Source: Methanomicrobium antiquum
GTDB lineage: Archaea; Halobacteriota; Methanomicrobia; Methanomicrobiales; Methanomicrobiaceae
Length of the DNA: 64,000 nucleotides
Direction: 5' to 3'
Assembly (NCBI RefSeq): GCF_029633915.1
Contig: NZ_CP091092.1
Span: forward strand, 434,001 to 498,000
Shown here: positions 5,116 through 36,067 of the stretch, piece by piece
Position numbering within the stretch: the stretch's first letter is position 1
How the letters are laid out: every line of letters begins with the position of its first letter
Notes under the pieces: generated by a model
Databases searched by the model: none
The model's input: the letters and a program-made list of their open reading frames with translations, nothing else
What the model was told of the DNA's origin: nothing
Made by a program: the position numbers and the translations under genes

Positions 5116-5123
5116 CGGCAATC

Positions 5124-9966: not shown

Positions 9967-9980
9967 TTCACAATTGTGAA
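9967..9980. promoter_or_regulatory. Motif A operator, divergent moaDE / HTH-larE
   Basis: Perfect TTCACAATTGTGAA in the region shared by moaD-moaE (minus) and the HTH-larE pair (plus); 45 bp before the HTH start. Confidence 0.7.
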
Positions 9981-10025
9981 TTACATAACTGTAATACTTT
10001 TCAAATAAAAAATGTTGTGGTAATT

Positions 10026-11216: not shown

Positions 11217-11288
11217 ATTTTTACATGAAAGTTACTTCGTAACTTACATGAAACTGTTGCATGAAATGATAATTTCATGAACGTTTTT
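11217..11288. repeat. Dispersed hairpin repeat
   Basis: About 70 bp made of three small hairpins: AGTTAC-TTC-GTAACT, CATGAAAC with TTGCATGA, and ATGAAAT-GATA-ATTTCAT, ending in GAACGTTTTT. It lies between the converging ends of larE and cysE. Close copies lie at 19416, 25048 and (inverted) 35632. Confidence 0.75.
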
Positions 11289-11326
11289 AATCAAAGCGTT
11301 TTTTTTGTTTCTCCATTAAATCATCT

Positions 11327-15447: not shown

Positions 15448-16422
15448 CTATTTGCTCTCACTTTCATCCTTAAATGAGACGGGGCTGTTGTAATGATGCT
15501 TTTCTTTGTGAATGCTGTCTATTAATGAGGTATCAAAAATTAAATTTTCCGGAACTTTTTCCTTAATATATCCAAGACTATACAAAGTATCTGCAAATTT
15601 CATTGTGGATTTAATGTATTCAGGCGGAAGTGATGCACAATATTTTGGAGATATATTATACGCTTCTTTTACAAAATCCTCATCAAACATACCTGAATTT
15701 TTTGATACCATCTCTGCACATGCAGATGGGTTTTTCCTTATAGCTTCGCATGCTTCTTCGTGTGCGGACAAAAACCTGCGGAGAATTTCCTTCTTTGATG
15801 AGATAATGTCAGTCATTGCAACTATTCCATAACTGGGATTAAAACTCCAGAGAGAATCAGGCGGTACTGCAAGTCTGACATTGCCATATCTTTTTGAACA
15901 AACTACAAGTGCAGGAGTCCCTGCCGCAGCTGAAATCTCCCCACAGTTTATGGCATCTGAAAGAAAGTCAGCCCAGGCGTAATTTTTTACTTCAACATCC
16001 AAAATACCGCAACGGCTAAGTATATGGCACACTATGACATCGTGAATTGATCCTTTAGGAGGAGTTCCAATGGCACTGCCAGAAAACTGCATAAAAAATT
16101 CTTTTATTCCACTGCATTCAGAAAGAATCTTTTTCTTTGGATCTGAGATAATCACCGTCCCTTCTACATGCCCTCCTGCAATACATTTCAAAGAAAGACC
16201 CTGGCTAATGCCGATTATCGCTGGTGGGAGCCCGATATAACATATATCGGCCTCTCCTTTTTTTAGTGCGGATATAATATCAGGTCCGGATGGATAAAGA
16301 GTCCATTTCGCATTAATTTTCCTTTTTTCCAGAAAACCCGGACCCTGCAGAAGAAATGAAGTATGGTATACTGTTGAGAGATATCCAATTTTTAGTGTGT
16401 CATCACATAAATTCTGATAAAT
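15448..16422 (-). CDS. Substrate-binding-like (NMT1/SsuA fold) protein without signal peptide
   Basis: The frame reads KIGYLSTVYHTSFLLQGPGF near its beginning, the first lobe of NitT/TauT/SsuA-type binding proteins, and the second-lobe motifs follow. There is no secretion signal, so the protein is probably cytoplasmic or its start is damaged. No ATG, GTG or TTG lies before the TTG at 16191, which would cut off 77 conserved residues. An ATT at 16422 sits 4 nt after a perfect GGTGAT site, and a nearby ATG is out of frame. It is either an ATT start, a frameshift at the start, or a decaying gene. It is divergent from the ATPase-GTPase-FeS trio. Confidence 0.6.
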   Translation of the reverse strand: MYQNLCDDTLKIGYLSTVYHTSFLLQGPGFLEKRKINAKWTLYPSGPDIISALKKGEADICYIGLPPAIIGISQGLSLKCIAGGHVEGTVIISDPKKKILSECSGIKEFFMQFSGSAIGTPPKGSIHDVIVCHILSRCGILDVEVKNYAWADFLSDAINCGEISAAAGTPALVVCSKRYGNVRLAVPPDSLWSFNPSYGIVAMTDIISSKKEILRRFLSAHEEACEAIRKNPSACAEMVSKNSGMFDEDFVKEAYNISPKYCASLPPEYIKSTMKFADTLYSLGYIKEKVPENLIFDTSLIDSIHKEKHHYNSPVSFKDESESK

Positions 16423-16597: not shown

Positions 16598-17434
16598 ATG
16601 CCTAAAGATCCTATAGTAATCCTGATGTCTTATAATGAAATTTTGGAACTGACAGTCCTTGCCGGAAAGGACCGGCAGGGAAAAGAGGAAAATTTTGACA
16701 GGATTGATATATATCCGGGCGATGTCATCTCAATAGTCGGGCCCACAGGTTCGGGCAAAACAGCTTTTGTAAATGATATTGAAGTTTTTGCCTTAAAGGA
16801 CACTGTTACAGGAAGAACAATACTTGTTAATGGGAAAGAGCCCCCTGAGGATATGGTTTGTGACCCTTCAAAAAAGCCGATAGCTCAGATTACACAGAAT
16901 ACCAGAGTTATTTCTGATTTAAATGTTCTGGATTTTTTAAGGCTTCATATAAGAGCAAGGGAAAATGGTGAAGAAAGACTGATTGAAGACACTATTTGTC
17001 TTGCAAATGAATTTACTGGCGAAAAAATCAGTTATCATATGAGAATGGCAGAACTCTCTGGAGGACAGACCAGATCACTTTTAATCGCAGATGCGATAAT
17101 TATTGATAAAACACCTGTAATTCTTTTGGATGAGGTGGAAAACGCAGGAATTAATAAGGAAAAAGTTGTATCCTGCCTTAGGAAATACAACAAAGCTGTA
17201 ATATTCAGTACACATGATCCCTATCTCGCTCTTATCGCCGACAAGCGCATTGTGATGAGAAACGGGGCAGTAACAGCCGTTATAACTCCAAAAGAGGCAG
17301 AGAAAGAGATTATGGAAAAGGTTTCTGAAATGGACTTATTTCTCCTGGATTTAAGGGAAAAAATTCGATATGGAGAGTCCTTTGAGAAAGAAAAACATGA
17401 GAGAATAAAATCAGGAACGGAGGCATATACATGA
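16598..17434 (+). CDS. ABC-type ATPase without a membrane partner
   Basis: 278 aa. Walker A GPTGSGKT (about 49-56), signature LSGGQT, Walker B VILLDEVE, and H-loop STHD. No permease is adjacent. The gene instead overlaps a HypB-like GTPase by 4 nt and is followed by an Fe-S protein, a set that looks like a metal-insertion or energy-coupled maturation unit more than a transporter. An internal ATG at 16625 is an alternative start. Confidence 0.7.
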   Translation: MPKDPIVILMSYNEILELTVLAGKDRQGKEENFDRIDIYPGDVISIVGPTGSGKTAFVNDIEVFALKDTVTGRTILVNGKEPPEDMVCDPSKKPIAQITQNTRVISDLNVLDFLRLHIRARENGEERLIEDTICLANEFTGEKISYHMRMAELSGGQTRSLLIADAIIIDKTPVILLDEVENAGINKEKVVSCLRKYNKAVIFSTHDPYLALIADKRIVMRNGAVTAVITPKEAEKEIMEKVSEMDLFLLDLREKIRYGESFEKEKHERIKSGTEAYT

Positions 17435-18138
17435 AACTGATAATTGTTGCAGGCCCTCCGAGCTGTGGAAAGACGGCTGTTATCCGCCACCTGATAAAAA
17501 AATACCTTGATACAGAAAAACCCGCTTACTTAAAGATTGATGTTGTAAAGGCAACTGAGGATACTGAACTAAATAAAGAGTTTGGCATACCCACAAGGAA
17601 GGTGTATTCAGGAGATTTGTGCCCGGATCATGCCGGCATTATGGTTTTAAAGGATGCAATCTCATGGGCAGAAGAGCTGAATGCCGGTATGCTAATAGTT
17701 GAGAGTGCAGGACTGTGCCTTCGCTGTACACCATATACCAGCCAGTCATTCGGTATTGCAGTAATATCAGCACTCTCAGGAAGCAGCTCGCCTCTTAAAA
17801 TGGCACCTATTATCGCACATGCGGATACAGTCGTTGTTACAAAGACCGAACTTGTATCTCAGGCAGAAAAAGAAGTGTTTCGGCAGTGTATCAGAAATGT
17901 TGCACCATCGGTTGATATCATTGAAACAAATGCAATTCAGGGCACAGGACTGAGATACCTTATGAGAGCTATTACAGAACATTCAGAAATTGAAGACCTG
18001 CGTGATATCACACTGCGGGGCACCCCCCCTCTTGGAGTCTGTACTATATGCATAGGTAAGAAAGAGATTGGATGGCAGAATCACTTTGGAGTAATCCGTC
18101 CTCTTGATGAGGCAGATAATATTTTCAGAGGTGACTGA
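17431..18138 (+). CDS. HypB/UreG-like G3E GTPase
   Basis: 235 aa. P-loop GPPSCGKT at the N-terminus, Walker B-like IVESAGLC, and guanine motif VTKTEL. Cysteines in ESAGLCLRCTPY and GVCTICIGKK could bind nickel or an Fe-S cluster. The family loads metal (Ni, Co) into enzymes at the cost of GTP. It is coupled to the ABC ATPase upstream and 2 nt from the Fe-S protein gene downstream. The client is unknown. Confidence 0.75.
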   Translation: MKLIIVAGPPSCGKTAVIRHLIKKYLDTEKPAYLKIDVVKATEDTELNKEFGIPTRKVYSGDLCPDHAGIMVLKDAISWAEELNAGMLIVESAGLCLRCTPYTSQSFGIAVISALSGSSSPLKMAPIIAHADTVVVTKTELVSQAEKEVFRQCIRNVAPSVDIIETNAIQGTGLRYLMRAITEHSEIEDLRDITLRGTPPLGVCTICIGKKEIGWQNHFGVIRPLDEADNIFRGD

Positions 18139-18140
18139 AA

Positions 18141-18755
18141 TTGTCATGGAATTCTCCGGGAAAGGACTGCGGGGCCTGTGGTTTTCCCTGCTGTGACGAG
18201 TTTGCAGAGAGTGTGGAAAAAAATATGAAAAGCTATGATGACTGCCCTTATTATTCCAGGAATAATGAAATAAACGTCTCTGATGCTGCATATTGCGGGA
18301 CTGATATTGCTGGTTACAAATATGACTTTGTTCTCCGCCCATTCCCGGATGAACCCTCAGCCAGAAAATATATTGTTCCTTTCAGGGCTGATTTAGTTGA
18401 GAAATGGGATATAAAAAGAGGCGATCTGGTAACCGGACGGCCGGCAGGTCCAGGATGTCCGGTATATCACGCCCTTCGTGTATTAAGTGCCAATACTGTC
18501 ACAGGAGTTTTGGAATGCCATACTGTCGGCCCTCTTGCTGCACGCAAAGAGGATTCGCATGACATTCAGGCGTACCAGGTGCACGCATTCGAAGGAATTG
18601 CAGAGACTCTTATCCATCCTCCAACAATTGGTCTGCGACAGCGTTTTCTGCCAGGATTCTGCATGCTTGACCTCTCCCACACAGCAGTTGTGAATATGGT
18701 GATGAATAAAAAATACGGAATGCACGTTCGTCTTGAAGATATAAGAATTATTTAA
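18141..18755 (+). CDS. 4Fe-4S-domain protein with unknown C-terminal domain
   Basis: TTG start 6 nt after GAGGTGA. The N-terminal CGACGFPCCDEFAESV with a later CPYY matches the four-cysteine 'putative Fe-S cluster' domain found in ACS/CODH corrinoid proteins and RnfB-like proteins. The rest (about 60-204) is an uncharacterised domain. Third member of the ATPase-GTPase-FeS operon. Confidence 0.7.
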   Translation: MSWNSPGKDCGACGFPCCDEFAESVEKNMKSYDDCPYYSRNNEINVSDAAYCGTDIAGYKYDFVLRPFPDEPSARKYIVPFRADLVEKWDIKRGDLVTGRPAGPGCPVYHALRVLSANTVTGVLECHTVGPLAARKEDSHDIQAYQVHAFEGIAETLIHPPTIGLRQRFLPGFCMLDLSHTAVVNMVMNKKYGMHVRLEDIRII

Positions 18756-18926
18756 GCAGGACTTATGAATTAAATCTCAGGAAATATCATAATAATCTAT
18801 TTTTAAAAGGATTAAAACTGAATTTAATTAGAATTAGTATAAAGAATTGAGATAATTTGCTTAAATGAAATGAGTTATGTACAATTGTTCACCGACAAGC
18901 GAACAATTCCTCAATATTTGAGGGCA

Positions 18927-19208
18927 TCATGCAACAATAACCTCTTTCGATAATAAATTCAACCCGTAAAGACTCTGTCTGGCATCAATAAAATAATGCT
19001 TTTCAATCAGGAGATCCTCATCCTTAAGCCTTTTTATGGCATAACGAACAGTTCTTGAGGGAAGTGTCGTCTCAGATATCAGATCTTTCTGGGTCAGATT
19101 TCCGTTCAGTTCAAGTGTCTTGTATACAAGCTTTACAGACGGAGGCAGATGCCCGATATTACGGTTTTTCTCCTCATTCTTTTGTGTTTTTACAACAAAA
19201 ACGATCAC
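18927..19208 (-). CDS. Winged-helix regulator, copy 1
   Basis: 93-aa MarR/HTH-type winged helix: N-terminal basic stretch, then LTQKDLISETTLPSRTVRYAIKRL as the recognition region and a wing near IEKHYFIDARQ. GTG start. It differs from copy 2 at 35754 by one residue (Leu versus Ser near the C-terminus). Motif A 33 bp upstream suggests self-regulation, making this pair the leading candidates for the motif A regulator. Confidence 0.8.
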   Translation of the reverse strand: MIVFVVKTQKNEEKNRNIGHLPPSVKLVYKTLELNGNLTQKDLISETTLPSRTVRYAIKRLKDEDLLIEKHYFIDARQSLYGLNLLSKEVIVA

Positions 19209-19240
19209 TCATAGTCTAATCAACCAATATAATATTGAAG

Positions 19241-19254: not shown

Positions 19255-19415
19255 GTCTTACTACTCATTTTTATTGATACTTTATAATTACCAGTGGTGA
19301 TATTTTGGAGAATATGATGATTTTCAGGGAAAATAATGAATTGTGAACTAATTCATCAGGACTTTGGTTCTCTTTTACCTGTTCCTGAATGATTAAATAA
19401 TATGACTCACGCACA

Positions 19416-19488
19416 TTTTTACATGAATGTTACTTCGTAACTTACATGAAACTGTTGCATGAAATATAATTTCATGAACCGTTTTTAG
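19416..19488. repeat. Dispersed hairpin repeat
   Basis: Same three-hairpin element as at 11217, in the same orientation, with two or three base changes. Confidence 0.75.
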
Positions 19489-21216: not shown

Positions 21217-22002
21217 TCATATTTCTCTCTTCGTCCGATTAATAGAATCAAGTATTTTTACAAGTTCTGTTGGATTTTTCGCATACCTTAGATTGTTCTT
21301 TTGGGATGCAAACACATCATCACATGCTCCGCCGCCTATTATAAACGGAACTGTAATTGAATTATCTTTAAGAGTATCTGCAGTACTTAGGAAAGCCATC
21401 CTTGTAGAGGTCATTAGAGATGAACCAAGAACTGCAATAGGGCTGTGCTTGCGAATCGCTGCCAGAACCTTATTTGTCTCAACCGAAGTTCCAAGATCAA
21501 TTACCTGATAACCATTTGCCTCAACTATTGCTTTAACAATATTTTTGCCGATATCATGCAGATCCCCTTCTGCTGTATGCAGGAGGACAATACCTTTTTT
21601 GGAGAGCAGATTCTCAGTACATCCTGTCTTATCTATTCCGGCCTGAAGTGCACGTGCTGCAAGAAGCATCTCGGGCACATAGACCTTTTTTTGATTGTAA
21701 AGCTCTGAGACAACGTTCATACCTGCCAAAAGACCTTTCACAGCTATCTCAAGAGGCCCTGCACCATTTTGTACTGCCTTCTCCGTAAGTTTTTCTGCCT
21801 TGGTCTCATCTCCCTCTATAACTGATAGTGCAAGCGAATGGAAAGGTTCAGAGGCAGGAATGCTGCTGTTTGGATTTGAGAGCGGGAAAACTTCTTCTTC
21901 ATCATCCTTCTCAGAAAATGCCTCTGCAAGAAGAGTGAAAAACTCTCCTTTATCTTCCTTTAACTTGAGGCCTGCAATATATCCGACTGTAAACGGTTTC
22001 AT
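21217..22002 (-). CDS. Methyltransferase corrinoid protein (MtaC/MtbC-like)
   Basis: 261 aa. A helical cap domain (about 55-130) is followed by a Rossmann cobalamin-binding domain with the lower-ligand motif D147-L-H149-D-I-G152, then LGSSLMTST and GGGA. It carries a methyl group on cobalt between a substrate methyltransferase and the MtaA-like enzyme. The N-terminal ~45 residues are unusual. Its start overlaps the end of the MtaA-like gene by 4 nt. Confidence 0.9.
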   Translation of the reverse strand: MKPFTVGYIAGLKLKEDKGEFFTLLAEAFSEKDDEEEVFPLSNPNSSIPASEPFHSLALSVIEGDETKAEKLTEKAVQNGAGPLEIAVKGLLAGMNVVSELYNQKKVYVPEMLLAARALQAGIDKTGCTENLLSKKGIVLLHTAEGDLHDIGKNIVKAIVEANGYQVIDLGTSVETNKVLAAIRKHSPIAVLGSSLMTSTRMAFLSTADTLKDNSITVPFIIGGGACDDVFASQKNNLRYAKNPTELVKILDSINRTKREI

Positions 22003-23066
22003 CCTCTAACACCTTCTGATAATCCCCTTAGAAATTCTCTGACAATTGTCTCATCATCTTTTTTAACAGGATACTCCGTCTGCGTCCTCACAAGTGAATG
22101 AATGTTTTCAAGCGGTGTTAAAGGCGACAAAGTACATCCGGATGACAAAACATCAATTCCGTCTGCAATTGCCTGCAATACTTCAACCTTTATCTGTTCA
22201 GGGTTACCCTGAAGCATTGTTCCAACAGGCGATATATTTCCAATAAGAGAAATATCATCACCGAGTATTTTTTTCGCCTCTAAAACATCCACTTTTTCTT
22301 CAAACGAATAAGCATCAAATCCGGAATGCCTGATATAAGGCAGCAACTCCTTTGTATTGCCGCAAATATGAAGAGCAGAAGGTTTTTTAGCCATATTAGC
22401 ATAGGTTTTGTGAAAGGGCAGGACAAATTCCCTGTACTGCTCACCGCTTAAAAGATCTCCTGATGATGTGGGATCGGATATGCTTATGATATCAGCCCCG
22501 TGATCCTCAAATGCACCAATAAGCTCTTTAGTGACACTTCCTGCATAATCCACTGCTTCGAGTGCGTAATCAGGATTTGTCTTAATCCACGGAATGAAAT
22601 TATTCACTCCAAAGATACTGCCAGCAATTGTGAATCCACCTGTAACTTTGGCATTAATTGGAACTTCGTCTCCTATCTTTTCACTTAGGATTTCAAGAGC
22701 TCTTAAAACAACAGGAATTCTTCCCGTCTCAAGTAGATTTTCAGGAACAGCAAACTCATCAGGTGTTTTGAATGCCGGTTTTTTTACTGACGGTGTCCGG
22801 TTTAATGTTCCTTTATCTATCTCACATCCGAGAGCCTCAGCTTCAAGTGAAAGGCAGAACGGGACTGTCACAGCCGGAAGTTCTGCCAGCTGCCACGGCA
22901 TAGCTGCAAGTTTGGCCATAGCCTCAGCTTCAAAATGAGCCTGTGGCCATTCAGTCTTAGACTTTTCCATCATTTCGACAGTTACAGCGACAACAGGCAG
23001 CCATAAAGGTACCCTGTCCGTTCTTCCGCCTAATAATCCCGAGATAATTCGTTTTTTAATATTCAT
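21999..23066 (-). CDS. MtaA/UroD-family methylcobamide:thiol methyltransferase
   Basis: 355-aa uroporphyrinogen-decarboxylase-fold protein. Zinc ligands expected for MtaA/MtbA are present: H233 and C235 in HICGNT and C311 in SSGCTLSP. It should move a methyl group from the corrinoid protein to a thiol, most likely coenzyme M, or the reverse. No MtaB, MtmB or MtsA-type substrate enzyme is next to it, so the methyl source is unknown. Confidence 0.85.
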   Translation of the reverse strand: MNIKKRIISGLLGGRTDRVPLWLPVVAVTVEMMEKSKTEWPQAHFEAEAMAKLAAMPWQLAELPAVTVPFCLSLEAEALGCEIDKGTLNRTPSVKKPAFKTPDEFAVPENLLETGRIPVVLRALEILSEKIGDEVPINAKVTGGFTIAGSIFGVNNFIPWIKTNPDYALEAVDYAGSVTKELIGAFEDHGADIISISDPTSSGDLLSGEQYREFVLPFHKTYANMAKKPSALHICGNTKELLPYIRHSGFDAYSFEEKVDVLEAKKILGDDISLIGNISPVGTMLQGNPEQIKVEVLQAIADGIDVLSSGCTLSPLTPLENIHSLVRTQTEYPVKKDDETIVREFLRGLSEGVRG

Positions 23067-23704
23067 AGTGATAGCAGCCTCTTATAGTAAAAACTTGTTC
23101 CGTGAAGGACGGCATTTGGATTGTGGCATGTAATTCTGTCTTTGGCAACAAGTGTGGTTACAGGTGCTTCTGAGTATTTTGTGAAAAGCGAATCGTGCCC
23201 TACACATAATCCAAGCAGAACATTAAACTCGGTATCTGCCGACGAGAGAATTTTTGCCTGTGCAACAGGATTACATATTGGCTCAAATGTTCCTGGTTTT
23301 GCCTTCTCAGAATCCAGGAGACCAATTTTTTCCTTGCCGATTGCTCCGCATTTACAGCATACAGACACTACATCAAATCCGTGAGCAGTAAGAATTTTCT
23401 GAAGAATCCTGTCTTCTGCCATAAGGCCGATGCATGTTGCAATCCCTATTTTTTTATATCCCATCTCTTTTGCAAAGTCGATTGTATCCTCAACCCTTGT
23501 CCATTTCATATAGCTTCTGCCTTCAGTTTTGGCGGCAGCGACTGCCATTTTTCCGGACTCTGGATCGGTTTGGTAAATCTCATATGCTGAGTTTACCTCT
23601 TCCATTTTTGTCTTTCCCGGACAAAATTTAGGCCCTTCTCCTGGATTTTCACTCCAGCAGGCCTGGTTTGGGCAACTGCTGCAGTCAGCTTTTCTTCTTG
23701 TCAT
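23063..23704 (-). CDS. DUF1847 metal-binding protein
   Basis: 213 aa. N-terminal CSSCPNQACW with a later FCPG, and mid-protein SVCCKCG, suggest bound metal or Fe-S. DUF1847 proteins commonly sit with corrinoid methyltransferase genes in anaerobes, and here the gene overlaps the MtaA-like gene by 4 nt and heads the operon. Function unknown. Confidence 0.75.
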   Translation of the reverse strand: MTRRKADCSSCPNQACWSENPGEGPKFCPGKTKMEEVNSAYEIYQTDPESGKMAVAAAKTEGRSYMKWTRVEDTIDFAKEMGYKKIGIATCIGLMAEDRILQKILTAHGFDVVSVCCKCGAIGKEKIGLLDSEKAKPGTFEPICNPVAQAKILSSADTEFNVLLGLCVGHDSLFTKYSEAPVTTLVAKDRITCHNPNAVLHGTSFYYKRLLSL

Positions 23705-23752
23705 TACTATCAGAAATTATTTCGGCTATAATTGCTAAAAGTGTAATATTAA

Positions 23753-23804
23753 AGCAATATTTGCCAGTTTTAGAAATTTTCAGATGATTGCGGCACTCTT
23801 TGCC
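23753..23804. promoter_or_regulatory. Two motif B sites before the DUF1847-MtaA-corrinoid operon
   Basis: AGCAATATTTGCC at 23753-23765 and GGCACTCTTTGCC at 23792-23804, centred about 39 bp apart, 49 and 88 bp upstream of the start. The second extends to a longer inverted repeat, TTGCGGCA-N5-TGCCGCAA. Confidence 0.55.
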
Positions 23805-23866
23805 GCAAATTATCTAAGAATAAAATTTCCAGGCAGGAAATAATTCAGTAAATTTAAAAAAAAGGA

Positions 23867-24940
23867 TTATTTATCCAGATTATTGAAATCAGCTTTCATG
23901 CTCAGATAATACTCATCATCTGGATATTCTGTCAATATTTCATCCAGTGCCTGCCCATAGAGTGTTACATCAATATGATCATTCATATCAACACCGTTAT
24001 CCTCAATGTATCCAATGGACTTTAACAGTTCATATGTCGTTAAGACTCCCTGCCTGTTAGGGTCAGGTGAGAGATATGAATGTTCATTAGTCATTGCTTC
24101 TTTTAAGATACTCTTATCCACTTTTACATAATTTGAGACATCATCCACAGCTTCATCGGGATTTGTATGGATAAACTTATAAGATCTTATAAGCGATTTT
24201 AACATCTTCACATATGAATCCCGGTCTGTATTTATGTTATCAGTCAGAACCGCAATACGGCAGCACGGATGTTTTGGATAATATTCTTCAGAGTATGCAA
24301 TAACTTTTAATCCCTGACTCTCTGCCATCTCCATATATGGAGTCCAGACAATTCCTGCATCAACTTTGCCCGATTTTACAGCTTCAAGAACTGCAGCAGG
24401 TGATTCAATCTCCTGAATTGTGAGATCCTCTTTTATATCAATCCCGGCATTTGAAAACACACCACGGAAAAATATATCACCTGATGACATACGAACAGTT
24501 GCTATAGTTTTTCCTTTATAGTCCTCAAGACTCTTGTACTTGTCAGCATTTTCTGGTTTAACAATAACACCTGCACCTTCGCCCATCAGACCGCCGACAA
24601 CTGTTACTTCTGCTCCTTTTGAAGCATAAACCAGCGGTGACGGCCCAAATCCGCCAATGTCAATTTTATTGGCAATAATTGCATTAATACCCTCAGCACT
24701 GTTCTGGAATGCAAATAATTCAACATCCAGATTTTCTTCTGCAAAATATCCCTCTTCCTGGGCAACAAAGATTAAAGCATGCCCGTTTGTCGGAAGATAT
24801 CCAATCCGCAGTTTATCTGCAGTTGTCTGATTCTCCTTATCTTTAGTCAGGTCTGAATTAAATCCTGTGACGACAATTACTGCTGCCAGCAAAATTACAA
24901 CAACTGCAACCACAATTACAAATATAAATTCTTTTTTCAT
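23867..24940 (-). CDS. ABC transporter substrate-binding protein, SsuA/TauA/NitT type
   Basis: 357 aa with an N-terminal membrane anchor or uncleaved signal (residues 5-27, Val/Ile-rich). Mature domain: LRIGYLPTNGHALIFVAQEEGYF, then GGFGPSPLVYASKG, the ligand-binding pattern of sulfonate, taurine and nitrate binders. It works outside the membrane with the permease and ATPase encoded from 25769 on the same strand. Context favours an organosulfur ligand such as a sulfonate or coenzyme M; this is inference. Confidence 0.88.
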   Translation of the reverse strand: MKKEFIFVIVVAVVVILLAAVIVVTGFNSDLTKDKENQTTADKLRIGYLPTNGHALIFVAQEEGYFAEENLDVELFAFQNSAEGINAIIANKIDIGGFGPSPLVYASKGAEVTVVGGLMGEGAGVIVKPENADKYKSLEDYKGKTIATVRMSSGDIFFRGVFSNAGIDIKEDLTIQEIESPAAVLEAVKSGKVDAGIVWTPYMEMAESQGLKVIAYSEEYYPKHPCCRIAVLTDNINTDRDSYVKMLKSLIRSYKFIHTNPDEAVDDVSNYVKVDKSILKEAMTNEHSYLSPDPNRQGVLTTYELLKSIGYIEDNGVDMNDHIDVTLYGQALDEILTEYPDDEYYLSMKADFNNLDK

Positions 24941-25047
24941 TTCTTCTCCACATTTGAAAAAGCATTTTTTCGACAGTATTTTAGAGCATATTCATAATAT
25001 CCTGCATTAAGAGCGGGAAATATGGATTTAATTCCGGTTGCATCATA

Positions 25048-25118
25048 AATTTTACATGAAAGTTACTTCGAAACTTTCATGAAACCGTTGCATGAAATAT
25101 AATTTCACGGACGTTTTT
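25048..25118. repeat. Dispersed hairpin repeat
   Basis: Same element as at 11217, but the first loop arm reads CGAAACTTTC, showing a compensated drift of the stem. Confidence 0.7.
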
Positions 25119-25191
25119 GATGCAGAAATCAAATCAACATGAAAATGCTATGTACAAATAGGTAAAAAACAGATAAATAGCATCACAATTC

Positions 25192-25243
25192 GGCAATAAT
25201 GGCCTTTTTTCTAAATTTTTTTATTTTTGCGGCAATATATGCC
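25192..25243. promoter_or_regulatory. Two motif B sites upstream of the binding-protein gene
   Basis: GGCAATAATGGCC (25192-25204, one mismatch in the right half) and GGCAATATATGCC (25231-25243), about 39 bp apart, the same spacing as the pair at 23753. Confidence 0.5.
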
Positions 25244-25254
25244 AGAGGCTGTTA

Positions 25255-25539
25255 CTAAATTATTTCTATCTCAAGCGAACTTTCAAGGCAGATTTGAGAG
25301 AATAATAACAGCTCATTTATGTTTTCTAACATTTCCTGATAGAGCGAGTTCGAGATATAAATTATAATTTTTGGATTTGCAGGTGAGACTTTTACAATTT
25401 CCGGATATATTTCTCTAAACAGTGAGACAAGCGTTCTGAAACTCACACGCTTAAGTATACGAATATGTCCGGTTCCTTTCGGATCGATAAATGTACGGTA
25501 ACTATCTGTTTTGCTGGAAAAAGCGATTTCATCCTTCAT
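25255..25539 (-). CDS. Unrecognised 94-aa protein
   Basis: Small soluble protein with alternating beta and helix pattern, acidic C-terminus and one cysteine. It lies between the binding-protein gene and the permease gene on the same strand and has its own motif A site upstream. I do not recognise the family. Confidence 0.6.
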   Translation of the reverse strand: MKDEIAFSSKTDSYRTFIDPKGTGHIRILKRVSFRTLVSLFREIYPEIVKVSPANPKIIIYISNSLYQEMLENINELLLFSQICLESSLEIEII

Positions 25540-25697
25540 TTATTTATCCTGACATTTTTCTTTAATTTTGATGATTACTGTTCTTCAATAACAGAGGTAT
25601 GTTTATTCGATAATTTTCCCTGTAATTTTTTATCCAAACCTGTGAAAACCGTTGTTTTCATTATCGTTTGCCCTATAAATTTTAGTTTACCTAGTGA

Positions 25698-25711
25698 TTA
25701 ACAATTGTGAA
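25698..25711. promoter_or_regulatory. Motif A variant (TTAACAATTGTGAA) before the 94-aa gene
   Basis: 13 of 14 positions match. It lies 159 bp upstream of the small gene and near the end of the permease gene. Confidence 0.5.
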
Positions 25712-25768
25712 TTTTTTACTAAATAGCTTTGTGCTTTTTTTTATTTTCCTTAGGTAAAAAAATTTGAT

Positions 25769-26695
25769 TTAGATATTCTGCCACCGAAGACAGTATGCCT
25801 GAATCCGATCAAAGAAATATGTAATAACCATTACAACCGCTCCTACAACGATTATTCCGGCAACAACCATATCATAATTGGCAAACTGGTGATTGTAGAT
25901 GATATACCATCCGAGACCGGATGTTGCTGCAATCATCTCTGCCACAGTCAGCGTAATAAATGAGATGATTAGAGCTATCATTGCACCGGAAAATATGGAT
26001 GGCAGTGCTGCCGGAAGAAGAATATCCTTCATCATGACTCTCTCTGAAAGACCAAGTGTTCTTGCAGTATTGATAAGTCTCTTGTCAATCCCAAATACTC
26101 CGAATATTGTTCCAACCAATATCGGCCAGAATGCTCCTATAAATATCAGGAATGTTGATGCTGCTGAAAATGTTGGGAGTAAAACGATGGAATACGGAAG
26201 ATATGCCGTAGGAGGTATCGGAGATATGGCTTTTGAGATAGGATACGCGACATTAAACAGTCTCTTCCTCCATCCAATATAAAGGCCTGCCGGAATTGCA
26301 AGAGCGAGTGCAAGCAGGTACCCCCCCACAAGAAACGTCAGAGAGCTGAACAAACCATTTATTATCAGTTCATAATCGTCCTGAAACACGGCAAATACCC
26401 GTGCAGGGCCTGGGAACAGGAAAGGGTCCAATAAAATCAGTTTTCCGATTAGCACTTCCCATAAAAAGATGACAACTGATAATATTAGAAATATATCCGT
26501 AATCCTCTCTGTCTCTTTGGGTTTTCTGTAGATTTCAATTATAAATGCTGCCAGAATTAGAATTAGCACGGCTAAAAATGCACTGTTGTCATCAACAGAC
26601 TGTGATGGAGCATCAGGAACTGCCACTGTAAGTATAAATACCGCAATCAGGATTACAAATGTCAGAATGCCGGTTTTATTCAGCTTAAACTTCAT
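25769..26695 (-). CDS. ABC transporter permease, SsuC/TauC type
   Basis: 308 aa with about seven hydrophobic segments, the first two (10-28, 40-55) extra to the usual six-helix permease. The cytoplasmic loop SISKAISPIPPTAYLP and the EAA-like stretch RTLGLSERVMMKDILLPAALPSIFSG mark the BPD-transport-2 family. One base separates it from the ATPase gene. Confidence 0.9.
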   Translation of the reverse strand: MKFKLNKTGILTFVILIAVFILTVAVPDAPSQSVDDNSAFLAVLILILAAFIIEIYRKPKETERITDIFLILSVVIFLWEVLIGKLILLDPFLFPGPARVFAVFQDDYELIINGLFSSLTFLVGGYLLALALAIPAGLYIGWRKRLFNVAYPISKAISPIPPTAYLPYSIVLLPTFSAASTFLIFIGAFWPILVGTIFGVFGIDKRLINTARTLGLSERVMMKDILLPAALPSIFSGAMIALIISFITLTVAEMIAATSGLGWYIIYNHQFANYDMVVAGIIVVGAVVMVITYFFDRIQAYCLRWQNI

Positions 26696-27520
26696 TTATA
26701 AGGCCTCCTTTTGCGCCTGCTGACTCTCTATTATCTCCTGCATCTCACAGTACAACACTGAGAATAGATACTGTTTCAGTTTGATGTAATCCTCAGTTCC
26801 ACTAAGACTTTTTCTGCATCTTGGACGTGAGAAGGGAATATCAATTATCTCTTCTATCTTTCCCGGAGTTGATGACATAATCCCGATTCTGTCCGAGAGT
26901 AAAAGCGCCTCATCCACATCGTGTGTTACAAAGAGTACTGTGTTTCTTGATTCTCCTTCTGACCACATATGCAGGAGAAGGTCCTGCATAAAAATCCTGT
27001 TCAGTGAATCCAGAGCTCCAAAGGGTTCATCCATTAAAAACACTTTAGGGTGCATGGCAAACATTCGTGCAATTGAGACACGCTGTTTCATACCTCCGGA
27101 GAGCGTACCGGGATATGCATCCTTAAATTTGCATAGTCCGACAAGATCCAGATAGGTATGTGCTGTTTTCTTCACTTCTTCTTTTGAAAGATTTTTATTT
27201 GCATGTTCAACTGCAAAAAAAATGTTTTCATATGCAGTCATCCATGGAAATAATGAATAATCCTGAAATACTATTCCGCATTCCGGACCTGGTTTTATCA
27301 CTGGTTCATCTCCTATGAATATTCTGCCTTTGGTTGGAACTTTTATCCCGGAAATCAGGTCTATTATTGTACTCTTTCCACAGCCTGAAGGACCTATTAA
27401 TGATATAAATTCACCGTTTTTTATGTCAAGATTAACATTTGAAAGGGCTGTATGACTCTTCCCGTTCACTCCGTAGACCATTGATATATCTTCAAGTTTT
27501 ATTGATGTCGTAAATATCAC
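26696..27520 (-). CDS. ABC transporter ATPase, SsuB/TauB type
   Basis: Walker A GPSGCGKST, signature LSGGMKQR, Walker B VFLMDEPFGALD, and H-loop VTHD. The start is unclear. GTG at 27520 lies inside the ribosome site GAGGTGAT itself. The codon at normal spacing is ACG (27511), which begins the conserved TSIKLEDISMVYG segment. A much earlier GTG-less extension to 27583 looks spurious. Pairs with the permease downstream. Confidence 0.85.
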   Translation of the reverse strand: MIFTTSIKLEDISMVYGVNGKSHTALSNVNLDIKNGEFISLIGPSGCGKSTIIDLISGIKVPTKGRIFIGDEPVIKPGPECGIVFQDYSLFPWMTAYENIFFAVEHANKNLSKEEVKKTAHTYLDLVGLCKFKDAYPGTLSGGMKQRVSIARMFAMHPKVFLMDEPFGALDSLNRIFMQDLLLHMWSEGESRNTVLFVTHDVDEALLLSDRIGIMSSTPGKIEEIIDIPFSRPRCRKSLSGTEDYIKLKQYLFSVLYCEMQEIIESQQAQKEAL

Positions 27521-29578: not shown

Positions 29579-29592
29579 TTCACAATTGTGAA
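29579..29592. promoter_or_regulatory. Motif A operator, divergent pdxS / thiN
   Basis: Perfect TTCACAATTGTGAA in the 232-bp divergent region, 95 bp from pdxS and 125 bp from the ThiN gene. Confidence 0.65.
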
Positions 29593-29716: not shown

Positions 29717-30316
29717 ATGACAGAGAACAATCAGGATGAATTAATAGAGATGTCTGGCCGGATGCACATTGCTCTTGAGATGCTTGAATCATGTAAGAAT
29801 TTTGCTTTTTTAATTCCGGAAGTCAGGTCAAATCTGGTGTATGCAAAAGAAAAGTCAGAGAACCCCCGTGATGTGCTCGCTATTGACGGAAGAATTACTG
29901 TGGTTGACGGGATGCCTAAGGCGGCAGGAAAACCACGGTTTGGTACATCAAGTCATATGGCGCGCCTTATGCTTGAAATAAGAAAGACAAAGCCATCAAT
30001 AAGGGCAGGAATCGACTTTGCCAATGACCCGGACATTGCAAAATGGCTTGAGGGCTACTGCCGGCATAATGGCCTGGTATTCAGCGTCATTGACAGAAGT
30101 CACGAGCCGGACGAGATAAAAGAGGCTGAGGGAGCATCCATGCCATGGAAAGTGGCTGAGGCTGTCCGTGCTGCGGGCGGCAGGGTTCCGGATATATTCT
30201 ATGAAACCGGTGCGGTTGGAAAAGAGCCTGTTACTGTACTTATTGGAGAAGACCCGATTTCTGTTGTCGGGGAGATGCTCTCTATTGCACATTCTTACAG
30301 GAGAGATATAATATGA
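29717..30316 (+). CDS. Stand-alone ThiN-type (thiamine-phosphate synthase) domain protein
   Basis: 199 aa, all ThiN domain: FLIPEVRSNLVYAK, the DGRITVVDGMP strand, FGTSSHMARL and IRAGIDFAND. In archaea ThiN occurs fused to ThiD (enzyme) or to an HTH (regulator ThiR). This one has neither, so it is either a free synthase or a ligand-binding partner. It overlaps the following AIR-synthase-like gene by 4 nt. Confidence 0.8.
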   Translation: MTENNQDELIEMSGRMHIALEMLESCKNFAFLIPEVRSNLVYAKEKSENPRDVLAIDGRITVVDGMPKAAGKPRFGTSSHMARLMLEIRKTKPSIRAGIDFANDPDIAKWLEGYCRHNGLVFSVIDRSHEPDEIKEAEGASMPWKVAEAVRAAGGRVPDIFYETGAVGKEPVTVLIGEDPISVVGEMLSIAHSYRRDII

Positions 30317-31350
30317 AAATAGGAAAAATTAATCCTGAACTTTTTTCATCGGTTCTAAAGAACAAACTTGGAAAATGGAGTGAAAATGTCATAGTCCCTC
30401 CGGCTCCGGGAATAGATGCAGGTGTTATTGACATAGGAGACGGGAAGGTTTTAATTATCGCAGAGGACCCTGTATTTGCAATCCCGGGTCAGCCGCTTGA
30501 GATGTTTGGGTGGTATTCAGTGCACATAGGCGCAAGTGATATTGCTGTAATGGGTGTTGCTCCGCAGTATATGACATATAGTCTTTTAATGCCGCCTGAA
30601 TTCTCAGAAGAGGATTTTAAGACAGTTGTTGATTCCATTCATAATACTGCAGCTGATCTCGGGATTGCAATTGTCGGAGGCCATACTGGACATTATCCGG
30701 GATTTGCAGCCCCTACAATAGGAGGTATTACAGTATTTGCAATAACAACAAAAGACAGTTATATAACACCTGCAGGTGCAAAGCCGGGAGATGCTGTAAT
30801 CCTCACAAAAGGGCCGGCTGTTGAAACCACAGGAATTCTTTCTGTCCTTCGGGAAAAAGACCTCCTTAAAAGACATCCACTCTCTCTGATAAAAAAAGCA
30901 CAGGAGATGGTTAAAGAGATGTCCGTTGTTCGTGATGCACAAATAGCAATGGCAGCAGGAGGTATCACCGCAATGCATGATGCTACAGAAGGAGGTGTTA
31001 TTGGAGGTCTTTTTGAGATTGCACAGGCAAGTGGTGTCGGCATGGAGATAGACGAGTCATTATTCATTTATCCGGATGAGATAAGGATGGTATGTGAATT
31101 TTTTAACTTAGACCCGGTTGCAGCAATTGCTGAAGGATCACTTCTGATTACAGTGAAAGAAAAACACGCAGATGGATTAATTGAAAAACTTAAAGAAAAT
31201 AACATTCCTGCATCAGTAATTGGAATTTTAACTGAGGATATGACTAAAAAAACAATCAAAAGAAGAGACGGAAGAACAGAGCCTCTTTTAATGCCGGAGC
31301 AGGACCCATTCTGGCCGGTTTTCTTTGAAAGTGTCAAAAATCAGGATTAA
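30313..31350 (+). CDS. AIR synthase-related protein (HypE/methanogenesis marker 2 type)
   Basis: 345 aa with the PurM/HypE/SelD two-domain pattern: ASDIAVMGVAPQYM, IVGGHTGHYPG, LTKGPAVETTGIL and MHDATEGGVIGGLFE. The family binds ATP and activates a carboxyl, carbamoyl or selenide substrate. The methanogen-only branch (marker 2) has no assigned reaction. Coupled to the ThiN gene. Confidence 0.8.
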   Translation: MKIGKINPELFSSVLKNKLGKWSENVIVPPAPGIDAGVIDIGDGKVLIIAEDPVFAIPGQPLEMFGWYSVHIGASDIAVMGVAPQYMTYSLLMPPEFSEEDFKTVVDSIHNTAADLGIAIVGGHTGHYPGFAAPTIGGITVFAITTKDSYITPAGAKPGDAVILTKGPAVETTGILSVLREKDLLKRHPLSLIKKAQEMVKEMSVVRDAQIAMAAGGITAMHDATEGGVIGGLFEIAQASGVGMEIDESLFIYPDEIRMVCEFFNLDPVAAIAEGSLLITVKEKHADGLIEKLKENNIPASVIGILTEDMTKKTIKRRDGRTEPLLMPEQDPFWPVFFESVKNQD

Positions 31351-31508: not shown

Positions 31509-32396
31509 ATGACACAAGCACGAAATATTGCCATATACGGTAAAGGAGGCATTGGAAAATCAACAACAACCTCAAACATAAGTGCTGCACTTGCCGATAT
31601 GGGAAAACGCGTCATCCAGATTGGATGTGATCCAAAAAGCGATTCAACCAACAATCTTCGTAGAGGACGCTCAATCCCAACTGTTCTTGACGCTATCAGG
31701 AGCGGCAAGAAAATAGAGACTGAAGATATTGTCCATGAAGGATTTGGAGGTGTTTTATGTATTGAAGCCGGAGGGCCCGAACCCGGTGTCGGCTGTGCAG
31801 GCCGTGGAATTATTGCCGCCATTGAACTTTTAAAGCAGAAAAAAATCTTTGAGGAGTTCAATCCTGATGTGGTTTTATATGACGTTTTAGGAGATGTTGT
31901 CTGTGGAGGATTTTCTGTTCCTATTCGTGAAGGTGTAGCCGAGCAGGTATATACAGTAACATCTGCTGATTTTATGGCAGTTTACGCTGCAAACAACCTG
32001 TTTAAAGGAATTAAAAAATATGCAAACAATGGTGGGGCACTCTTCTCCGGAATCATTGCAAACTCAGTGATACTTCCGGTTCACAGAGAGATAATAGATG
32101 ATTTCGCGGACAAAACCGGCGCAACAATTGCAGAGTACGTTCCGCGTTCGGAAACAATTACAAGGAGTGAACTAAGAGGACAGACAGCTGTTGAGTATGA
32201 TCCTGATTCTGAACAGGCAGAAGTTTACAGAAACCTGGCAAGAGCAATACTTAAAAATCAGGAGAAATACGTCCCGGCACCTCTTGAAGCAGAGGAATTA
32301 AAAGGATGGGCTGAGTCCTGGTCCGACAGACTTCTTATAAAAAAAGAGGAAGAGACAGGAGTTAAAACCCCATCAGATGCTCTTACTGCAACATAG
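31509..32396 (+). CDS. NifH-like reductase component of a nitrogenase-like system
   Basis: 295 aa. P-loop GKGGIGKST (11-19), switch regions, and the two cysteines that would bridge the 4Fe-4S cluster between subunits, C96 in GVGCAGRG and C132 in DVVCGGF. It should transfer electrons with ATP hydrolysis to the D-K proteins encoded next. Strong ribosome site AGGAGGTT. The closest functional idea is a MarH-type reductase (methylthio-alkane reduction for sulfur) or another group IV enzyme. It is not in the usual cfb arrangement. Confidence 0.9.
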   Translation: MTQARNIAIYGKGGIGKSTTTSNISAALADMGKRVIQIGCDPKSDSTNNLRRGRSIPTVLDAIRSGKKIETEDIVHEGFGGVLCIEAGGPEPGVGCAGRGIIAAIELLKQKKIFEEFNPDVVLYDVLGDVVCGGFSVPIREGVAEQVYTVTSADFMAVYAANNLFKGIKKYANNGGALFSGIIANSVILPVHREIIDDFADKTGATIAEYVPRSETITRSELRGQTAVEYDPDSEQAEVYRNLARAILKNQEKYVPAPLEAEELKGWAESWSDRLLIKKEEETGVKTPSDALTAT

Positions 32397-32413: not shown

Positions 32414-33967
32414 ATGACATTTAACACACAGGAAGAAGCAGATAAAGCTCTTTATGAAAAAAAAATTGATCTCTTTCAAAAAACATGTCCAAACCGTGAA
32501 CAGCGTGCAAACGGGATTAATATTTTTTATGGAAAAGCAAGTGAACTGGTTGATAAAGCAAAGGCTGGTTGTCTTAAAAATCACGAACGTGGATTTGCAC
32601 AGTCGTCCGGCTGTACACTAAATTTTTATCTGTCTGTTCGTGTAGGCACAATCAGGGATGCTGTAACTATCTTTCACGCACCGGTCGGATGTTCATCATC
32701 TGCCCTTGGATATCGGGAATTATTCCGTCACGTACCTGTTGAATTAGGACGTCCGGCAGAGTTTGATCTCCACTGGATGACTACAAACCTGCGTGAGAAA
32801 GATGTTGTATACGGAGCAGGCGATAAACTTAAAAAAGCAATATATGAAGCACAAAAAAGGTATGATCCAAAAGCCATCTTTATCCTGACTTCCTGTACAA
32901 CAGGAATCATCGGAGAGGATATAGAAGGTGCAGTGTCTGATGTTCAGCCAAATATAAAGGCTAAAATTGTTCCGATCCACTGTGAAGGAGTTCGCTCAAG
33001 ACTTGTCCAGACAGGATATGATGCCTTCTGGCATGCCATAATGAAATACCTTGTGAAAAAGCCGGAACAAAAGCAAAAAGACCTTGTGAATGTTGCAAGC
33101 ATGCTCTCATATACCTGGCAGGATCGTCTTGAAATACAGCGCCTGCTCGGCAAAATTGGGCTTCGTGCAAATTTAATACCGGAGTTTGCATCTGTTGAAC
33201 AGTTTGAGCAGTTATCAGAAGCTGCGGTGACTGCACCTCTATGTGCGACATATACAGATTATCTTTCACGCGGGCTTGAACAGGAATATGGAGTTCCGTA
33301 CTTTATGTATCCTTCACCGATGGGAATTAGCAATACCGATGAATGGCTGAGGCAAATAGGAAAATACACAGATAAGGCTGCCGAGGTTGAGGAACTTATA
33401 AAAGAAGAGCACAAGGTATGGAAACCAAAACTTAAGGTAATAAGAGGAGAATTTGACAGGATTGCCAAAGAAAAAGGAAGTAAAGTCAGTGTCCTTGGCT
33501 CTCTGGGTCAGGGACGTCTTCTTGCACAGATGCCATTCTTTGATGAACTGGGGCTGTCTGCTCCTGCTGCCATGTCGCAGGATTATGACAATTTAATACT
33601 TGAAGACCTTGAAGCTGTAATTTCCCGGGTAGGAGATTTTGATCTTTTAGTCAATACATTCCAGGCTGCAGAACAATCACATATAACAAACAAGCTTGAT
33701 CCTGATCTGACGCTTACCTGTCCGTTTCAGGGAGGGGCATACAAAAGGAATAAAGGCTCTACCCGAATCCATGCTCTTCGCGGAGATGCGCATCCATGGA
33801 GTACACAGACCGGATATTCAGGATCTGTTGCTTATGGCAATTTCCTGCTCCAGGCACTCAAAAGTGAATCATTTCAGAAAACACTTAAAGAAAAAACCAA
33901 AGACAGCTACCGTGACTGGTGGTTTAAACAGGCAAATCCACTCTATTACATGAAACAGGAGCTATAA
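32414..33967 (+). CDS. NifD-like catalytic subunit of a nitrogenase-like system
   Basis: 517 aa. Cysteines C67, C93 and C161 (SSGCTLN, PVGCSSS, LTSCTTG) sit where NifD binds the P-cluster. The motif TSCTTGIIGEDIEG is typical of the family. Cofactor ligands equivalent to Cys275/His442 cannot be assigned by eye. It is larger than the single-subunit CfbD of F430 synthesis and is paired with a separate K gene, which fits MarD/NifD-type architecture rather than CfbD. Confidence 0.85.
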   Translation: MTFNTQEEADKALYEKKIDLFQKTCPNREQRANGINIFYGKASELVDKAKAGCLKNHERGFAQSSGCTLNFYLSVRVGTIRDAVTIFHAPVGCSSSALGYRELFRHVPVELGRPAEFDLHWMTTNLREKDVVYGAGDKLKKAIYEAQKRYDPKAIFILTSCTTGIIGEDIEGAVSDVQPNIKAKIVPIHCEGVRSRLVQTGYDAFWHAIMKYLVKKPEQKQKDLVNVASMLSYTWQDRLEIQRLLGKIGLRANLIPEFASVEQFEQLSEAAVTAPLCATYTDYLSRGLEQEYGVPYFMYPSPMGISNTDEWLRQIGKYTDKAAEVEELIKEEHKVWKPKLKVIRGEFDRIAKEKGSKVSVLGSLGQGRLLAQMPFFDELGLSAPAAMSQDYDNLILEDLEAVISRVGDFDLLVNTFQAAEQSHITNKLDPDLTLTCPFQGGAYKRNKGSTRIHALRGDAHPWSTQTGYSGSVAYGNFLLQALKSESFQKTLKEKTKDSYRDWWFKQANPLYYMKQEL

Positions 33968-35324: not shown

Positions 35325-35753
35325 GATTAATACAGATCTAAAGAAATCTGCACTAACAAGAATATCAACCTCAATTTTCTTTTGAATCTGTTTTTTTACA
35401 TATCAGATGAATTTATGCTAAATCCAAAATGATCCGTCCTCTATTTTTTTAAAGAGGTAGTATTAAAAAAAGTAATAAAAAGTGTTCGGAACTGCATCCC
35501 GAGACACTGAACATTTAGCTGCTTTAAAGGCCATTATTGAACTTAATTTCACCTCAATCAGCTATAGTATCATAGCATGTAATCCTGATTTTTAAAAAAA
35601 AGTCTGACTGAAAACTTAAATAAATTTGATGAAAAGCGTTCATGAAATTATCATTTCATGCACGGTTTCATGTAAGTTACGAAGTAACTTTCATAGCAAA
35701 TTGAATATAAATCTATATTCAACAACAAATAAACAAAATAATTTCTTTATGCA
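35325..35753. other. Intergenic region after the nitrogenase-like operon
   Basis: 429 bp with no gene. It contains an inverted copy of the dispersed hairpin repeat at 35632-35696. Nothing else recognisable. Confidence 0.6.
35632..35696. repeat. Dispersed hairpin repeat, inverted copy
   Basis: Reverse complement of the element at 11217 (GCGTTCATGAAAT... to GTAACTTTCAT), with both hairpins kept. Confidence 0.75.
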
Positions 35754-36035
35754 TCATGCAACAATAACCTCTTTTGACGATAAATTCAACCCGTAAAGAC
35801 TCTGTCTGGCATCAATAAAATAATGCTTTTCAATCAGGAGATCCTCATCCTTAAGCCTTTTTATGGCATAACGAACAGTTCTTGAGGGAAGTGTCGTCTC
35901 AGAAATCAGATCTTTCTGGGTAAGATTTCCATTCAGTTCAAGTGTCTTGTATACAAGCTTTACAGACGGAGGGAGATGACCGATATTGCGGTTTTTCTCC
36001 TCATTCTTTTGGGTTTTTACTACAAAAACGATCAC
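35754..36035 (-). CDS. Winged-helix regulator, copy 2
   Basis: 93 aa, one residue different from copy 1 at 18927. Third-position changes exist between the copies, so the protein is under selection or the duplication is recent. Same motif A variant 33 bp upstream. Confidence 0.8.
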   Translation of the reverse strand: MIVFVVKTQKNEEKNRNIGHLPPSVKLVYKTLELNGNLTQKDLISETTLPSRTVRYAIKRLKDEDLLIEKHYFIDARQSLYGLNLSSKEVIVA

Positions 36036-36067
36036 TCATAGTCTAATCAACCAATATAATATTAAAA

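Follow-up and report, generated by a model that had tools for sequence, protein, structure and literature searches.

A transport and methyl-transfer module in a possible sulfur-acquisition island of Methanomicrobium antiquum

Positions 21217-27520 of the stretch analysed here, a 64,000-nucleotide segment (the window; bases 434001-498000) of the single-contig, 2,438,126-bp genome of Methanomicrobium antiquum, hold a transport and methyl-transfer module. On the minus strand, in the order of transcription, its genes encode an ATP-binding cassette (ABC) ATPase, a permease, a small conserved protein (u94), a substrate-binding protein (SBP), a DUF1847 protein, a zinc methyltransferase resembling MtaA and a methyltransferase corrinoid protein (Table 1). 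The last three genes of this operon are joined by 4-bp overlaps and are therefore very likely co-transcribed. An earlier reading made from the letters alone (the sequence-only reading) had grouped the binding protein, permease, ATPase, DUF1847 protein, MtaA-like enzyme, corrinoid protein and an activator. Family searches confirm every one of these proteins, but the activase gene is convergent with the operon, hence separate from it, and lies outside 21217-27520, and u94 had gone unmentioned. For u94, Pfam and NCBIfam searches returned no family match; its homologs adjoin MarHDK-like genes in five other loci (L241, L248, L250, L251 and L254; L numbers denote fetched loci, G numbers genomes). 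NCBIfam scoring of the window proteins also gave matches to the SaoX, SaoP and SaoA families; Sao proteins are reportedly the subject of a paper by Haft and Gwadz, and our literature search on SaoX and SaoA brought up unrelated papers only.

Table 1. Genes and motif sites discussed in the text, numbered from the first base of the window
Feature	Positions	Strand	Evidence or remark
ABC ATPase	26696-27487 (start 27487 or TTG 27583)	-	PF00005 1.2e-32; TIGR01184 262 bits
ABC permease	25769-26695	-	PF00528 4.3e-19
u94, small conserved 94-aa open reading frame between permease and SBP	25255-25539	-	conserved homologs
SBP, NitT/TauT (SsuA/TauA) type, HPCC motif	23867-24940	-	TIGR01728, predicted structure
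DUF1847 protein, 213 aa	23063-23704	-	PF08901 2.8e-64
MtaA/CmuA-family zinc methyltransferase (soluble coenzyme M methyltransferase type, SCMT), 355 aa, His-Cys-Cys site	21999-23066	-	TIGR01463
Methyltransferase corrinoid protein (MtaC/MtsB-like), 261 aa, DLHDIGKN motif	21217-22002	-	
RamA-like ASKHA corrinoid-protein reductive activase, 504 aa	19586-21100	+	RACo_C_ter 1.9e-54, Raco_middle; C-terminal Fe-S motifs reduced
MarH-like (NifH family) reductase	31509-32396	+	orthologs in Mar-like loci
MarD-like	32414-33967	+	PDB search, alignment
MarK-like	33969-35324	+	PDB search
HTH1, 93-aa winged-helix protein	18927-19208	-	PF13412; site of motif A (19241) 33 bp before the gene
HTH2, near-identical copy of HTH1	35754-36035	-	site of motif A (36068) 33 bp before the gene
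Motif A, exact	1557-1570		directly upstream of tRNA-Cys and SepCysS
Motif A, TTAACAATTGTGAA, 1 mismatch	25698-25711		159 bp upstream of u94
Motif A, exact	29579-29592		between pdxS and ThiN/AIR-synthase genes preceding MarHDK-like genes

The methyltransferase (METHYLTRANSFERASE) is an MtaA/CmuA-family protein by its score of 332.9 bits to TIGR01463, above the subfamily cut-off of 235.4, and stays below the NCBIfam equivalog cut-offs for MtaA (NF040654, 334.9 versus 400) and MtbA. Its best PDB match is 4ay7, and its zinc ligands are His-Cys-Cys (H233, C235, C311), a combination given as the signature of S/Se-methyltransferases in a passage of Kountz and Balskus (PMC10418091). It is the sole TIGR01463 match of its genome at E ≤ 0.001, and this genome is the only one of the 60 searched in which the subfamily cut-off was exceeded. 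The closest relative among 391 other genomes is 48-49% identical (G239, loci L132/L161), all others reaching 42% or less; a contig-level scan yielded 73 loci whose relatives do not exceed 41% identity along the best segment.

In a tree of 85 rows, picked from the loci with only seven of the Nitrospirae-type loci L091-L128 retained and with its bootstrap not settled, the window protein falls into a starred 14-row clade (99/92) with L161 and a Methanosarcina-type group (L138-L164); in a 38-row tree, the sole starred grouping around it is that with L161. Approximately unbiased (AU) tests on the 38-row set rejected a grouping with classical MtaA (p 5.1e-5), disfavoured one with MtpA-like proteins (p 0.013) and did not reject one with the MtsA-like group L138-L164 (p 0.105). 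As judged by gene sizes and matches to the window proteins, the loci of this group encode RamA, an SCMT (40-41 kDa) and a corrinoid protein (about 29.5 kDa), with no neighbouring MtaB-like gene; the two subunit sizes agree with those of MtsA and MtsB. The MtaA of a methanol system, in turn, is rejected by the NF040654 score, the AU test (p 5e-5) and the lack of MtaB in the genome.

The corrinoid protein is the one match of its genome to PF02607 (B12-binding_2); in the corrinoid tree it falls, on a long branch and without a firm placement, with MtaC and MtsB-like proteins. Searches for MtaB (PF12176), MttB (PF06253) and MtmB (PF05369), each positive in the control, Methanosarcina acetivorans, found no match in the genome; these searches did not extend to the dimethylamine family PF09505 or to MtrH paralogs. 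The sequence-only reading had seen no substrate:corrinoid methyltransferase at the locus, and within this scope there is likewise none in the genome. A classical methanol or methylamine system elsewhere that uses the corrinoid protein, named in that reading as the observation that would count against it, was not found for MtaB, MttB and MtmB; within these families, and with a single PF02607 protein, we reject such a system. The genome holds instead what is seen with MtsA/MtsB: one MtaA-family enzyme and its cognate corrinoid protein, with no separate substrate methyltransferase (MT1) in the families searched, and with a thioether or thiol proposed as methyl donor and coenzyme M (CoM) as acceptor. 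Compared with MtsA/MtsB, the window proteins form a separate lineage, the enzyme being about 39% and the corrinoid protein about 36% identical to those of the putative MtsAB-like group L163/L164, and the module has an ABC importer, DUF1847 and a MarHDK-like cluster associated with it, in a genome in which no other methylotrophic system was found. The activase scores 434.5 bits to TIGR04270, below the cut-off of 500, and has the ASKHA domain.

MtpCAP, the methylmercaptopropionate system of Methanosarcina, whose gene order is also that of an operon in L062, likewise combines a corrinoid protein, an MtaA-family enzyme and a transporter within one operon. Its transporter, however, resembles the major facilitator superfamily, whereas the window has an ABC importer, the MtpA-like proteins are 28-29% identical to the window enzyme, and a system of this type is disfavoured by the AU test (p 0.013). 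Two further combinations were seen in passing. About 8-15 kb into the Nitrospirae locus L091, genes for an MtaA-like protein, a corrinoid protein, an Fe-S protein and a RACo-like activase are followed by relatives of the SBP, permease and ATPase, a bacterial combination similar to the window module. In L175, from a genome of the same genus, five corrinoid proteins form an array interspersed with proteins of 399-427 aa, some of them weakly UroD-like, and an activase-like gene is present; this is a methyltransferase system that has not been characterised.

The SBP scores 131.4 bits to TIGR01728, below the cut-off of 163.5. Its predicted structure (pLDDT 91.6) comes nearest to 3un6, SsuA (2x26) and TauA (6ssy) and also resembles Thi5 and the bicarbonate and nitrate binders, so that the fold does not fix the ligand. 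With the sulfonate importers SsuABC and TauABC, the window importer has the SBP fold and the permease and ATPase families in common; it differs from them in an SBP that stays under the family cut-off and in the HPCC motif of the aligned archaeal homologs, bacterial SBPs not having been checked for it. This motif, as HPCC or HACC, is present in nearly all of 24 aligned sequences (the window SBP and 23 archaeal homologs), H224 and C226 being invariant and C227 nearly so, and is to our knowledge unusual among sulfonate binders.

Relatives of the SBP at E ≤ 1e-15 occur in 195 of the 392 genomes of the phylum, its own included, and orthologs (45-50%) in four of the 391 others (G041, G256, G402 and G275), three of which belong to one family and are thus not independent. 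Strong relatives of MarK (E ≤ 1e-90) were found in ten other genomes, from G045 (82%) through G228, G041, G402, G256, G275, G363, G333 and G316 to G387 (40%), and all four SBP-ortholog genomes are among these ten. Fifteen stretches were fetched from the ten genomes around MarK or SBP relatives, and in none of them did a protein match the MtaA-like enzyme, the corrinoid protein, RamA or DUF1847 at E ≤ 1e-5. Since the SBP orthologs co-occur with MarK and the fetched loci are without methyltransferase genes, it appears more likely that the importer is the partner of the MarHDK-like enzyme and that the methyltransferase and corrinoid protein, like DUF1847 and the activase, were added locally. The sequence-only reading had proposed that an imported thioether or sulfonate is demethylated here, or that the MtaA-like enzyme itself takes the substrate. 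Corrinoid methyl transfer without a recognisable substrate methyltransferase, with a thioether or thiol as the probable substrate and the MtaA-like enzyme perhaps taking it at the His-Cys-Cys site, agrees with our results; whether the compound imported is also the one on which the methyltransferase acts has become doubtful, given four SBP-ortholog genomes without methyltransferase genes at the fetched loci. Two observations concern the importer's surroundings. A group of genes at 16598-18755, encoding an ABC ATPase, a HypB/CobW-like GTPase and a small Fe-S protein, is kept at or near the SBP in L241 and L242/L243 (55-73% identity), and at 15448-16191 lies a second, apparently truncated gene for an SsuA-like binding protein, with a 42% identical Nitrospirae homolog in L092 (an open reading frame of 301 aa).

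In PDB searches, the MarD-like protein reaches 240 bits to 9FMG and 9D9U, compared with 114 for the best other entry, and the MarK-like protein 295.6 bits to 9d9u_C, compared with 67.5 for the next. 9FMG is the methylthio-alkane reductase complex MarDK2H2, in which, according to a passage of PMC12552129, Cys270 and His429 ligate the active-site cluster. MarHDK of Rhodospirillum rubrum (9FMG) is thus by far the closest relative of the D and K proteins in the PDB, and the P-cluster cysteines as well as C270 are common to both: C66, C91, C158 and C270 are kept throughout the window protein, 12 archaeal relatives and the PDB segment.

The genes of this region are further tied together by a palindrome, motif A (TTCACAATTGTGAA), of which the whole genome of 2.44 Mb contains four exact sites and five with one mismatch. 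All nine lie within window positions 1557-36081 (at 1557, 1761, 8091, 9967, 13305, 19241, 25698, 29579 and 36068); at up to two mismatches there are 25 genomic sites, compared with eight for a reversed control. The genes next to the sites are those for tRNA-Cys/SepCysS, SufS, NadA, LarE, CysK, HTH1, u94-SBP, pdxS/ThiN and HTH2, pdxS, unlike most of these neighbours, having been identified by reading its sequence; site 9967 lies within a predicted open reading frame (9696-10331) whose start is uncertain. No motif A site lies in the gap before the ATPase and permease genes; the nearest is that at 25698 upstream of u94-SBP. HTH1 and HTH2 are encoded on a duplicated 300-nt block (18924-19223 and 35751-36050, 96% identical), and because motif A lies 33 bp upstream of each they are candidate regulators acting at this motif.

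Motif A extends beyond the window genome. With at most one mismatch it occurs in 10 of the 15 Mar/SBP stretches (25 sites, 8 of 10 genomes), just upstream of u94 in L241, L248 and L254 and upstream of an HTH homolog in L250 and L251. The remaining five stretches (three from G041, one each from G256 and G387) have no site at up to two mismatches, nor do 14 control stretches (L165-L178), whose gene content was not matched to that of the 15; after Markov shuffling, the 15 stretches gave 0.05 to 0.5 sites each. All 14 tRNAs in the window and the 15 stretches are tRNA-Cys (window 1479-1549 and 5042-5116, the latter not called by Rfam at the gathering score; others include those in L243, L250, L252 and L253). 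A motif A match lies exactly 7 nt upstream of seven of them (five exact, one with one mismatch, one with three), an exact one 10 nt upstream of an eighth (L252), and the other six have no close match. The four tRNAs of the remaining fetched stretches (L161-L179), none of them tRNA-Cys, lack motif A. A literature search with the exact motif string returned no paper. Motif A and the HTH proteins provide a concrete candidate operator and regulator for methanogen sulfur assimilation, conserved beyond the order of the window genome, for instance in a genus of family f8 that is probably Methanosarcina, and attached to tRNA-Cys.

The importer, u94 and the methyl-transfer genes sit among cysteine and sulfur-transfer genes carrying this region-confined motif, beside the MarHDK-like reductase. 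We consider it an even matter whether the module is, as we propose, part of a sulfur-acquisition island of about 36 kb, in which MarHDK-like cleavage and MtsA-type demethylation feed CoM. Under sulfide shortage, the SsuA-type importer would take up an organosulfur compound, and the MarHDK-like enzyme would cut its C-S bond so that methanethiol or some smaller thioether is set free. Its sulfur would then be bound at the His-Cys-Cys zinc site of the single MtaA/MtsA-type enzyme, which would transfer the methyl group to the genome's sole methyltransferase corrinoid protein, held as Co(I) by the RamA-like activase, and from there, in the fashion of MtsA, to CoM; the methyl group would leave as methyl-CoM and methane, and the sulfide would pass to CysK or SepCysS. 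Substrate, order of steps and direction of methyl flow in the module are what we infer. A passage of PMC10418091 proposes methyl-sulfide made by Mar as the methyl donor for SCMT-type clusters, and reports selenium cases as well. For archaea, we did not find Mar-like cleavage and an MtsA-type step described together in the literature searched. What was an orphan operon thereby becomes a testable hypothesis of sulfur scavenging coupled to methane formation, with no classical methylotrophic system found. Distinctly more tentative is the wider proposal that a methanogen in which no other methylotrophic system was found gets its sulfur in two steps, cleavage of an imported organosulfur compound by a nitrogenase-like enzyme from an archaeal subgroup in which a cluster ligand has changed and MtsA-type conversion of the S-methyl group to methane, under a winged-helix switch whose operator, 7 nt before tRNA-Cys genes, would couple the tRNA-dependent route to cysteine with the supply of sulfur in methanogens of different families.

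The type 1 mlp clusters are among the closest known systems. According to Kountz and Balskus (PMC10418091), two or three SCMT homologs accompany a corrinoid protein and an activase in these clusters, which are often found near MarHDK-like genes and also occur in Methanococcus. The window is alike in its SCMT homolog, corrinoid protein, Ram/RACE activase, nearby MarHDK-like genes and surrounding sulfur genes, but the type 1 clusters need at least Mlp2 and Mlp3, whereas the window genome has one SCMT-family protein. With one TIGR01463 match in the genome (E ≤ 0.001) where two or more are required, we reject a type 1 mlp cluster. The window is an archaeal, single-SCMT relative of the mlp/Mar idea, in which importer and Mar-like enzyme appear as the conserved pair.

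Several findings weigh against the sulfur-acquisition island as proposed. In the activase, most of the C-terminal Fe-S cysteines are lost in comparison with L163-L165, and the two C-terminal [4Fe-4S] motifs of RamA are not both retained. The proposal gives DUF1847 no role. The motif A site of u94 carries one mismatch and sits 159 bp off. The MtsAB-like label of L163/L164 derives from subunit size and the lack of MtaB, a verified MtsA sequence not being in the comparison. The nearest relative of the MtaA-like enzyme, in L161, has an HTH gene, a corrinoid protein and MtmB as its neighbours, which suits a plain corrinoid:CoM role. Since the other fetched Mar loci are without MtaA-like, corrinoid and RamA genes, Mar apparently does not need them. 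Finally, the R. rubrum His429, a ligand of the [Fe8S9C] cluster, corresponds to N in the window MarD-like protein, in a gappy part of the alignment, and none of nine close relatives (L241, L243, L245, L246, L248, L250, L251, L253 and L254) has H in this column; H is present in one (L249) of the three less closely related archaeal rows. With this ligand missing, Mar activity is not assured, and the cluster can be called Mar-like by sequence. In place of His429, the window protein and its nine close relatives have a common insertion, TCPFQG...HA, and the two features together suggest that this archaeal MarD-like subgroup uses a different cluster ligand. Such proteins would extend the nitrogenase-like family, and the change can be checked by structure.

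Among the alternatives, the one that survives best, although we hold it to be somewhat unlikely, is that two separate functions merely adjoin: the importer and u94 would serve the MarHDK-like enzyme, while the MtaA-like enzyme, corrinoid protein and RamA-like activase would demethylate a volatile that diffuses in, such as methanethiol or dimethylsulfide, in MtsAB-like manner and with no need for an importer. It would account for SBP orthologs that are always found in MarK-bearing genomes and without methyltransferase genes at the fetched loci, and the title of a cited paper describes M. barkeri MtsA as performing both half-reactions. The order u94-SBP-DUF1847-MtaA-corrinoid on one strand, with an intergenic gap of 162 bp between SBP and DUF1847, suggests co-expression instead.

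It is unlikely that the MtaA-like enzyme performs the corrinoid:CoM step only and that the substrate:corrinoid methyltransferase is some unrecognised protein, for example DUF1847 or an MtrH paralog. The position of its L161 relative beside MtmB would fit such a division, as would the 4-bp overlap of the MtaA-like gene with that for DUF1847, a protein of unknown function, but there is no MtaB, MttB or MtmB in the genome. An alignment of six DUF1847 sequences shows conserved C91, C117, C144 and C167-V-G-H-D. Its AlphaFold model has a mean pLDDT of 70 and no clear fold match, and the prediction, of moderate confidence, is of a small protein of alpha/beta type that lacks a TIM barrel, which speaks against this role. 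The best structural match, an aspartate racemase domain, reaches a TM-score of just 0.35 over the model, and we draw no function from it; no PDB sequence match was better than E 0.36, and DUF1847 as a search term gave no match in the literature searched. DUF1847 homologs occur in 5 of 59 relatives and, in the fetched loci, not beside corrinoid proteins, which again disfavours this role.

Salvage of methyl-selenium instead of methyl-sulfur, as for Methanococcus voltae with dimethylselenide, is improbable: His-Cys-Cys fits Se as well as S, and a passage of PMC10418091 ties related SCMT clusters to methylselenide, but the island carries cysteine and sulfur-transfer genes, the SelD score of the AIR-synthase-like gene (30313-31350) is 93.9, below the cut-off of 125, and there is one SCMT-family gene compared with two or three in the type 1 clusters. 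Least probable of all is that CoM, or the sulfonate methyl-CoM, is taken up and salvaged and that the MtaA-like enzyme works on methyl-CoM. The SBP is of the SsuA/TauA type and SCMTs act on CoM, but nothing points to CoM specifically, and a C-S cleaving partner suggests degradation, not salvage.

Motif A is a better operator candidate than the repeat, here motif B (73 nt), to which the sequence-only reading had assigned control of the module. Motif B has four copies in the window (11217-11289, 19415-19487, 25048-25121 and 35629-35702), one of which (11217-11289) lies where two genes converge, between their 3' ends. An 82-base query found at least 43 matches in the genome, at least 40 of which span nearly the whole element with identities of 88% or higher, these counts being lower bounds from 40 of 208 candidates scored. 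The repeat forms two hairpins, more stable than those of shuffles (z -3.2 to -5.7). This makes motif B a repeat scattered over the genome that defines no regulon; with at least 40 near-full copies it is rejected as an operator, and control of the module by it is not supported. Elsewhere in the window, adjoining CysK at 11327-12313, lies a gene in which serine acetyltransferase (CysE) is fused to a SufT-like domain; L247 encodes a 61% identical protein of 314 aa.

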